A stretch of 64,000 nt of DNA. It comes from Clostridiaceae bacterium (GTDB lineage Bacteria > Bacillota > Clostridia > DSM-8532). Positions within the stretch are counted from its first letter, which is position 1; every line of letters begins with the position of its first letter. Positions 30,170 to 32,808 of the stretch are shown piece by piece. The translations under genes and the position numbers were made by a program. The notes beneath the pieces were generated by a model that was not told where the DNA came from, searched no databases, and worked only from the letters and a program-made list of their open reading frames with translations. The stretch spans positions 1 to 64,000 of the forward strand of contig JAAYLX010000042.1 of assembly GCA_012521705.1 (NCBI GenBank). Direction: 5' to 3'.

Positions 30170-31063
30170 ATGAAAAGGAATATTGCATTTTTTACAGCGA
30201 TCGTTATTCTTGTTCTCAGCATGCTGACTTTGGCAGGATGCGGTACAAAGGCTAATAACAATTCTGATGATAACAATACTGCTGCACCGGGCAAAAAAGG
30301 TGTAAAAGTTATAGAAATCCCATTAACCCAGGAAGAGTATGCTTTTGGCGTGGACAAAAACCAGCCTGAACTCCTGGAGGAAGTAAACAAGTTCATTGCG
30401 CAGATTAAAGCTGACGGCACCTATGATGCTATACTCAACAAATACTTCGGTGAAGGCGAGCCCGAGGCTGTAACTTCCGCAGCGCTTGACAACAGCAAAG
30501 ATCAGTTGGTTGTTGCTACAAATGCAGGTTTTGAACCCTTCGAATATACAAAGGGAGACAAATATTACGGTATTGATATGGAAATCGCAGCTCTTCTTGC
30601 CAAGCATCTTGGAAAAGAGCTTGTAATAAGCAATATGGATTTTGAAGCTGTATGTCTCTCAGTTGGTCAGGGAAAAGCCGATATTGCGATGGCTGGTCTG
30701 ACAATCAAAGAAGACAGAAAAGAGTATGTAAACTTCTCAGACAAATATCATGATGCAGCTCAGATGATAATAGTAAAAGCTGACGACACTACTTTTGACA
30801 ACTGCAAAACCGCTGAGGATATAGAAGCTATACTTTCCGGTTTCGGTTCTGACGTTAAAATTGGTGTTCAGGCAGGGACCACCGCCCAGTTCTATGTAGA
30901 AGGCGATGAAGACTTGGGCTTCAGCGGGTTCAAAGCTGAATGTGTTGGCTACAAATCAGGTTCACTGGCGGTACAGGATATGATAAACGGAAACATCAAC
31001 TATGTAATCATAGACGAAGCACCTGCACAGTTCATAGCAAAAGCCATTAATGAGCTCAACTGA
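30170..31063 (+). CDS. Polar amino-acid binding lipoprotein, apparently circularly permuted
   Basis: This 297-residue protein has a lipoprotein signal (LAGC, Cys 24) and an Asn/Asp-rich linker. Residues 45-96 (KVIEIPLTQEEYAFGV ... ADGTYDAILNKYFGEG) are the segment that normally ends a family 3 binding protein. Residues 107-297 are the rest of the domain from its usual first strand (QLVVATNAGFEPFEY) to the hinge-like end VIIDEAPAQFIAKAINELN. The usual last segment is missing from the C-terminus. ATG 30170 follows AAGGAG at the right distance. It serves the HisM/GlnQ-type permease and ATPase downstream; the ligand is probably a polar amino acid. Confidence 0.85.
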   Translation: MKRNIAFFTAIVILVLSMLTLAGCGTKANNNSDDNNTAAPGKKGVKVIEIPLTQEEYAFGVDKNQPELLEEVNKFIAQIKADGTYDAILNKYFGEGEPEAVTSAALDNSKDQLVVATNAGFEPFEYTKGDKYYGIDMEIAALLAKHLGKELVISNMDFEAVCLSVGQGKADIAMAGLTIKEDRKEYVNFSDKYHDAAQMIIVKADDTTFDNCKTAEDIEAILSGFGSDVKIGVQAGTTAQFYVEGDEDLGFSGFKAECVGYKSGSLAVQDMINGNINYVIIDEAPAQFIAKAINELN

Positions 31064-31089: not shown

Positions 31090-31121
31090 CCCCGCTTTTG
31101 CAATAATAAAGCGGGGTATTT
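31090..31121 (+). terminator. Terminator between amino-acid binding protein and permease genes
   Basis: CCCCGCTTT pairs with AAAGCGGGG and is followed by TATTTCG. The short U-tract suggests partial termination. Confidence 0.7.
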
Positions 31122-31289: not shown

Positions 31290-32000
31290 ATGGGTAATTT
31301 TGATAAGAAGCTTAAAGTATTCTGGGAAATGTTTTATGAACACGGCGGCTATACCAAAGTAGTTACAGGCCTTTACAATACAGTTTACATAGCTGTAATG
31401 GGTCTTGCCATCGGTATCATTATAGGTACAATAATCGCAATTGTTAAAGTTTTTCCTAAATATAAGAGATTGCCCAGAATATTGGACGCAATATGCAGTT
31501 TCTATGTAAATTTGTTCAGGGGCTCACCTGTGGTGGTGCAGCTTCTGGTAGCCTATTATGTCATTCTTCCTTTAATAGGTCTGAATCTGCCCGCTCTCTA
31601 TGTCTGCGTTCTGGTCTTTGGACTTAACAGCGGAGCCTATGTTTCAGAGATTATGAGGGGCGGAATTATGTCGGTTGACATAGGGCAAATGGAAGCAGGC
31701 CGTGCCCTGGGGTTGAGTTATGGAACTACGATGCTTAAAATAGTTGTTCCACAGGCGATAAAGAATATTCTTCCAACTCTTGGCAACGAATTCATTGCCC
31801 TGATTAAGGAAACATCTGTTGTGAGCTTCGTGGGAGCCGCAGATTTGTATGTGGCATTCAACTACATTGGAACCAACAGCTATGAGTTCATGGTTCCTTA
31901 CCTCGCCATGGCATTGATTTATATTACCATGGTAATGATAATAGCCTTCCTCATAAAAATCATGGAAAGGAGCCTAAGAAAAAGTGATAGACGTAATTGA
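31290..32000 (+). CDS. Polar amino-acid ABC transporter permease
   Basis: This 236-residue HisM/GlnP-type permease has the loop motif [33 protein letters not shown] and [15 protein letters not shown] near the first half. It probably forms a homodimer, as only one permease gene is present. The ATPase gene starts 17 bases before its stop codon. Confidence 0.94.
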
Positions 32001-32808
32001 TCTGAAGAAGAATTATGGGCAGCTTGAAGTTCTGAAAGGTATTACAACTACTATAAAAGAAGGAGAAAAAGTTGCCATAATAGGCCCTTCCGGAAGTGGG
32101 AAAAGCACATTCCTGCGCTGTCTTAACTGTATGGAGGACCCCTCGAGCGGTTCAATAATCTTCCAGGGTGTTGATATAGCCGACATGAGGGTCAACATAA
32201 ATATCCACCGCAGGCATATGGGGATGGTTTTTCAGCAGTTTAACCTGTTCAACAACAAAACTGTCATCGGGAACATAATGCTGGCTCCTGTTCACATTGC
32301 ACTGCAGGATCTCAGCATGAAAAAGATTAAGAACTTTTTCATCCGGATTGGAAATGTATTTTTGAAAAATAAGAAGCCTCTATATGAGATAAACACCAAT
32401 AAGGCAAAAATAATAGAAGAGGCCAGGGAAAATGCAATGAGGCTGCTTAAGCGGATTGGCCTTGAGGATAAGGCGGATGTTTATCCATCCACCCTTTCAG
32501 GCGGACAAAAACAAAGAATTGCCATTATCCGTGCCCTTGCAATGAACCCTAAAGTAATGCTCTTTGACGAACCTACGTCTGCCCTTGACCCTGAGATGGT
32601 CGGAGAGGTTCTGGACCTTATCAAGCAGTTGGCAGATGAAGGAATGACCATGGTTATAGTAACCCATGAAATGGGATTTGCAAGGGAAGTTGCCACCAGA
32701 GTTCTTTTCATGGACGAAGGCAGGATTGTTGAAGAGAACACTCCTGAAGAAATATTCTTCAGGCCACAAAACCCAAGAACACAGGAATTTTTGTCCAAGG
32801 TTCTGTGA
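31984..32808 (+). CDS. Polar amino-acid ABC transporter ATPase with an inserted helical segment
   Basis: This GlnQ/HisP-type ATPase has [10 protein letters not shown]-loop MVFQQFNLF, signature LSGGQKQR, Walker [13 protein letters not shown] and H-loop VIVTHEMGF. At 274 residues it is about 30 longer than usual. The extra stretch (about residues 104-140, [26 protein letters not shown]) is basic and lies between the Q-loop and the signature, where the helical subdomain touches the permease. The start is GTG 31984, overlapping the permease gene, with AAAGGAG 13 bases upstream. Confidence 0.92.

Follow-up and report, generated by a model that had tools for sequence, protein, structure and literature searches.

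A gene at positions 30170 to 31063 of the window, by which we mean the entire 64,000-nucleotide stretch of Clostridiaceae DNA analyzed here, very probably encodes a lipid-anchored, circularly permuted amino-acid binder of a polar amino-acid ABC importer, one of several such permutations that have occurred repeatedly in Clostridia. The features of the locus are listed below, with segments of the binding domain named for their order in linear relatives (S1-S2a-S2b-S3).

30170..31063 (+), circularly permuted family-3 amino-acid binding lipoprotein, 297 aa (matches to SBP_bac_3 and to PDB chains)
30170..30241 (+), signal peptide and lipobox LAGC with lipidated Cys24 (sequence reading; helix at 4-21, modelled with low confidence)
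30302..30451 (+), moved segment S3, residues 45-94 (aligned with the C-termini of linear chains; block pLDDT ~89-98)
30452..30502 (+), new linker, residues 95-111, from the old C-terminus to the old N-terminus on lobe 1 (gap between aligned blocks)
30503..30778 (+), S1, residues 112-203, the N-terminal part of lobe 1 through hinge 1 (194-198)
30779..31060 (+), S2a and S2b, residues 204-297, lobe 2 to the helix after Asp282, ending at the new C-terminus
31090..31116 (+), hairpin CCCCGCTTT/AAAGCGGGG in the gap between binding protein and permease, a possible attenuator (direct reading)
31290..32000 (+), single polar amino-acid ABC permease gene, presumed homodimer (PF00528, 4.3e-23; TIGR01726 above cutoff)
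31984..32808 (+), GlnQ-like ATPase gene (PF00005, 5.8e-36; best NCBIfam match, GlnQ)

A family-3 binding domain with its segments out of order

The frame begins at an ATG at 30170 with AAGGAG upstream, ends with a stop at 31061-31063, and carries a lipobox. Its product scores 119.2 bits against SBP_bac_3 (PF00497), for which the curated cutoff is 26.4, and meets the family criterion; the Pfam match (1.3e-34) is split over two stretches, and in the genome profile search model positions 97-132 lie upstream of model positions 1-111. In phmmer searches, PDB chains aligned in two blocks whose order is swapped relative to linear family-3 proteins: query residues 119-295 matched residues 11-173 of AncQR (4zv1; independent E value, 3.6e-20), and query residues 50-102 matched residues 181-233 (2.6e-7), the query being counted here in a 304-aa rather than the 297-aa numbering. 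The same swapped pattern was obtained with 5t0w, 5tuj, and 4f3p. The canonical order of the family (N-lobe, lobe 2, C-segment) is not met; the window protein reads S3-S1-S2a-S2b and is therefore a permuted, noncanonical member of SBP_bac_3.

These alignments bear out the first-pass annotation, which had placed the normally C-terminal segment right after the lipoprotein linker and had the remaining domain (residues 112-297) end where the moved segment should begin. Its location of that segment at residues 45-96 was correct in position, but the exact end was not; the segment runs from VKVIEIPLTQ to NKYFG (residues 45-94) and consists of the last lobe-2 strand (45-52), hinge 2 (53-57), and the C-terminal helices of lobe 1, the hinge being mapped from GlnPQ SBD2. 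The conserved Arg and Asp found in linear amino-acid binders have counterparts in Arg183 and Asp282, which do not vary among 48 homologues. In the family, these two residues belong to the amino-acid site. There is no curated NCBIfam model for the permuted form, and scores fall far under the equivalog cutoffs of the linear families.

A survey of orthologues, which the first-pass annotation had proposed as a check, found the permuted order in all homologues examined at ≥52% identity (n ~ 100; Acetivibrio-like, Oscillospiraceae, and Lachnospiraceae genomes). Its retention in ~100 genomes rules out an assembly or annotation artefact. The window protein is collinear with its nearest Clostridia relatives, which include proteins from Acetivibrio, Thermoclostridium, Cuneatibacter, Dorea, and many metagenome genomes, and 21 of 291 sampled genomes of the class have a member of the window clade at an E value of <1e-95. 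The permutation is thus long established and fixed in a clade of wide distribution.

Predicted fold and position of the membrane anchor

An AlphaFold model built on 48 aligned homologues has a mean pLDDT of 88.5. Residues 45-96 (ten-residue block means, ~89 to 98) are packed into the domain, the moved segment forming one strand, hinge strands, and two helices. The proposal of a permutation would have failed had these residues been left unpacked, or had orthologues held a complete C-terminal segment with the N-terminal one as an extra; no second copy occurs in any classified single-domain homologue. It could still be argued that a complete domain carries the N-terminal segment as an addition or duplicate, or that this segment completes a partner molecule by segment swapping. 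Without a C-terminal copy, in the query or in the classified homologues, an extra segment beside a complete domain is ruled out, and the model is confident as a monomer across the segment; a monomer model cannot exclude swapping, but we consider the alternative as a whole very improbable.

Foldseek searches of the PDB retrieved linear family-3 proteins, mostly with ~170 to 190 aligned columns and a target-normalised TM of ≤0.68. Among the matches listed, only the in-order part was covered, and there was no full-length structural match. Partial coverage is expected of a sequential aligner when one segment is out of order, and a permuted match cannot be proved by Foldseek alone. The best 50 matches were family-3-like amino-acid/opine binders and their relatives, with no type I sugar binder.

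Lobes were assigned by alignment transfer from GlnPQ SBD2, in which D1 comprises residues 255-343 and 444-484, D2 comprises 349-438, and the hinges are 344-348 and 439-443 (PMC7679957); Tyr344, Ser346, and Gly441 of that work correspond to the 6h30 chain with an offset of 24. By these boundaries, the N- and C-terminal segments of linear members both belong to lobe 1 (D1). In the window protein, the hinges map to 194-198 (hinge 1) and 53-57 (hinge 2), and residues 45-52 and the final helix, 283-296, fall in D2, which puts the anchor and both new ends on lobe 2. The membrane anchor would thus be on lobe 2 rather than lobe 1, as inferred by homology to GlnPQ SBD2 without coordinates; on the same basis, the shift of the tether across the hinge that had been foreseen for this protein holds. 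Simulations of GlnPQ SBD2 showed its C-terminal tail holding the domain locked open against a lobe-2 (D2) helix (PMC7679957). The moved C-terminal helix of the window protein corresponds to this tail. By analogy, we hypothesize that opening may be tuned differently in the permuted protein, where the tail is internal and its partner helix is the C-terminus.

Operon context

The permease scores 75.1 bits against TIGR01726 (cutoff, 42.2), and the adjacent HEQRo-type permease and GlnQ-type ATPase genes meet the criterion for a PAAT importer. One permease gene and one ATPase gene are found downstream in 67 of the 70 orthologous loci with room for them. The hairpin at 31090-31116 was not flagged by a terminator scan, and a search for known RNA regulators near the operon gave no Rfam match across the entire window. 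The ATPase has ~34 extra residues between VFQ (Q-loop) and LSGGQ (89, versus 55 in the L227 ATPase), and the long spacer is also present in most ATPase orthologues of the window clade.

Four cut sites, all within lobe 2

With the domain split into S1, S2a, S2b, and S3, segment order was scored in every fetched frame. The linear order was found in 67 frames, type A (S3-S1-S2a-S2b, including the window protein) in 98, type B (S2a-S2b-S3-S1) in 15, and type C (S2b-S3-S1-S2a) in 3; these counts are biased by the choice of queries. A Pfam-driven survey of 59 Clostridial genomes, made without preference for permuted sequences, added two type A lineages (L234/L235 and L242-L244). Among the matches listed for those genomes, at least 15 of ~150 SBP_bac_3 places were permuted, linear members being the majority. 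A fourth cut, D, close to where the lobe-2 segment S2a begins, was seen in L239 only (284-aa frame). The four cut sites (A, B, C, and D) all fall within lobe 2.

Two architectures were seen among type B frames. The binding domain is fused to the permease in L112 (537-aa frame), and two tandem copies are fused to it in L120 (779-aa frame); the permease tether in these proteins also attaches on the lobe-2 side. Two frames with short partial Pfam matches, L246 (578 aa) and L247 (635 aa), were rejected as permutants because lobe 2 is missing. In both of these family-3-like domains, S1 passes almost directly into the C-terminal segment.

Repeated origins

A careful maximum likelihood tree of 82 re-linearised sequences needs nine topology changes, and its strongly supported (starred) branches alone force at least three for A and at least three for B. 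A broader quick tree of 110 sequences, in which stars are less reliable and deep branches are weak, gives 11 changes, with at least five for A and at least three for B. Topology was defined by segment order and not from the tree, although the younger A groups were split after the tree had been seen, and the counts of changes may include reversals. Overall, there have been about 8 to 11 topology changes over four cut sites in the family-3 binders of Clostridia.

The common cut site of all type A proteins and the presence of the window clade across many families might suggest a single ancient permutation, inherited vertically and horizontally, as the source of all type A. Such an origin is hard to reconcile with the positions of L030 and L154, type A proteins that branch among linear sequences from the genus to which they belong, and of L023-L028, which sit beside linear L153 (76 to 78% identical). 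Placing all type A in one clade cost 170 log-likelihood units (p-AU, 1e-55), so that the AU test rules out one origin under the model used. Joining the two younger A groups alone cost 139 units (p-AU, 5e-8); the A2 group (L023-L028) taken by itself was not rejected as one clade (p, 0.39). Cuts B, C, and D require further events regardless, and a single origin is, in our judgment, scarcely tenable. Repeated origin is thereby demonstrated: cut A arose at least three times by the careful tree and probably five times.

Linear and permuted genes in the same slot

In genus g54, the binding protein gene is flanked on one side by genes for a fused Metalloenzyme/DeoC-type enzyme, a GGDEF protein, and a saccharopine-dehydrogenase-like protein and on the other by the permease and ATPase genes. 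This same slot holds a linear gene in L226, L228, and L229 and a permuted gene in L227 and L233; the permeases beside them are orthologous and ~72 to 74% identical. The fused enzyme (L226:11564-13399, minus strand; L227:2987-4822, plus strand) is a 611-aa protein that joins Metalloenzyme-superfamily (phosphopentomutase-like) and DeoC/LacD-family aldolase domains.

Linear L162 and permuted L030 are 85% identical after re-linearisation; they share a signal peptide and, before S1, the linker FTT(V/I)E(S/E)GK. At the DNA level, the upstream region and signal peptide have not moved (62-238 in both), nor has the downstream flank (1005-1069 in L162 versus 1000-1063 in L030). A 149-bp block at 814-962 in L162 is at 241-389 in L030, directly behind the lipobox, and the gene body is shifted down from 274-803 to 442-956; a linker of ~50 bp separates the moved block from the body in L030. 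One permutation is therefore recent enough to be traced at the DNA level between species of one genus.

Proposed route and mode of action

Each permutation would begin with a duplication within the gene, copying either the 3' segment or the whole domain, and would be completed by deletion of the redundant part within the gene. No intermediate with both S3 copies was found, and the duplication step is inferred only. Query residues 64-227 align with residues 187-343 of the tandem SBD1-SBD2 of GlnPQ (6h30), across the junction of the SBD1 C-terminus and the SBD2 N-terminus, an arrangement that would be expected of a duplication intermediate; unlike the window protein, GlnPQ carries a pair of intact linear domains joined to the permease. 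In L216 (528-aa frame), a single lipoprotein contains two full linear family-3 domains, one after the other. Such a tandem is the kind of intermediate needed by the duplication route. The proximity of the two linear ends to each other on lobe 1 is, we infer, what makes permutation tolerable.

In our model, the two-lobed clamshell would bind one amino acid between its lobes, hang from the membrane by lobe 2, and hand the amino acid to a homodimeric permease. Clamshell folding, the binding of a single amino acid, and its delivery are inferred, there being no binding, transport, or solved-structure data. A homodimer offers the same surface to both lobes, so the importer may accept anchoring on either one; this reasoning rests on the single permease gene and is itself an inference.

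Neutral tolerance or adaptation

The permuted order may be selectively neutral if family-3 domains tolerate permutation and internal duplication and deletion are frequent enough for permuted genes to drift to fixation. The exchange of linear and permuted genes in one slot, beside orthologous permeases, indicates that transport apparently works with both forms. Laboratory work points the same way: to judge by its title, a study by Clifton et al. 2017, cited in a paper on this family (PMC7683729), applied circular permutation to FRET sensors together with ancestral protein reconstruction. The sensors reportedly use an arginine-binding protein of family 3. Those permutants were made in the laboratory for sensors, whereas the window permutation is natural. 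Neutrality does not readily explain why every cut falls in lobe 2, ~40% of the domain (~90 of 230 residues); eight independent, uniformly placed cuts would all do so with a probability of ~0.0005, a rough figure, given that loops restrict where cuts can fall and that sampling was incomplete. Nor does it explain why the permuted form has persisted in many families of the window clade. Of the single readings, neutral tolerance is still the likeliest, one that we judge evenly poised between right and wrong.

It is conceivable, though doubtful, that Clostridia have repeatedly re-permuted these proteins adaptively, moving the anchor from lobe 1 to lobe 2 and so changing opening, closing, or docking on the homodimeric permease. 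The restriction of all cuts to lobe 2, including those of the permease-fused type B proteins (L112 and L120), would fit such selection, as would the open-state lock by the C-tail of GlnPQ SBD2 in simulations (PMC7679957), a tail that permutation makes internal; anchoring was also raised as a possible reason by the authors of the TpMglB-2 study (PMC4990184). There are, however, no functional data, linear members are still the majority, and the lobe-2 bias may merely reflect cut-tolerant loops.

Relation to known systems and implications

Linear GlnH, ArgT, ArtJ, and AncQR (4zv1) have the same domain, with a two-block alignment to the window protein and the conserved Arg and Asp, but in the order S1-S2a-S2b-S3 rather than S3-S1-S2a-S2b and with both ends on lobe 1. 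A close precedent in topology is TpMglB-2 (Tp0684), a circularly permuted glucose-binding lipoprotein described as "Type Ic / Cluster Bc," which, like the window protein, is a natural permutant of a lipid-anchored ABC binding protein and has Gram-positive relatives (PMC4990184). Unlike the window protein, it belongs to the type I (cluster B) sugar binders; three strands of the N-lobe have moved to its C-terminus, a fourth hinge crossing has been gained, and it was reported as one family and not as repeated events (PMC4990184). By its best 50 Foldseek matches, the window protein does not meet the Type Ic / Cluster Bc criterion of a type I sugar-binding fold. It resembles TpMglB-2 as a permuted, anchored binding protein and is not a Type Ic member.

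In a full-text literature search, which did not cover most subscription journals or bioRxiv, we found no published account of family-3 proteins in permuted form, nor of the family being permuted more than once, and the only permuted binding proteins found were TpMglB-2 and engineered permutants. A natural permuted binding protein of another fold class was already known in TpMglB-2; natural permuted family-3 binders with repeated origins appear, on this search, to be new.

Natural circular permutation is usually an ancient event that is recognised only afterwards. One of the topology changes described here took place inside a single genus and in an unchanged operon slot, and its breakpoints are resolved to within a few tens of bases. 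For annotation, two-piece profile matches in reversed order represent intact proteins here and not fusions or frameshifts. With matched linear and permuted pairs in hand, one can test directly how permutation arises and what part the anchor position of the binding protein plays. If the adaptive reading were true, the family would be a natural hotspot in which circular permutation is an ordinary evolutionary switch.
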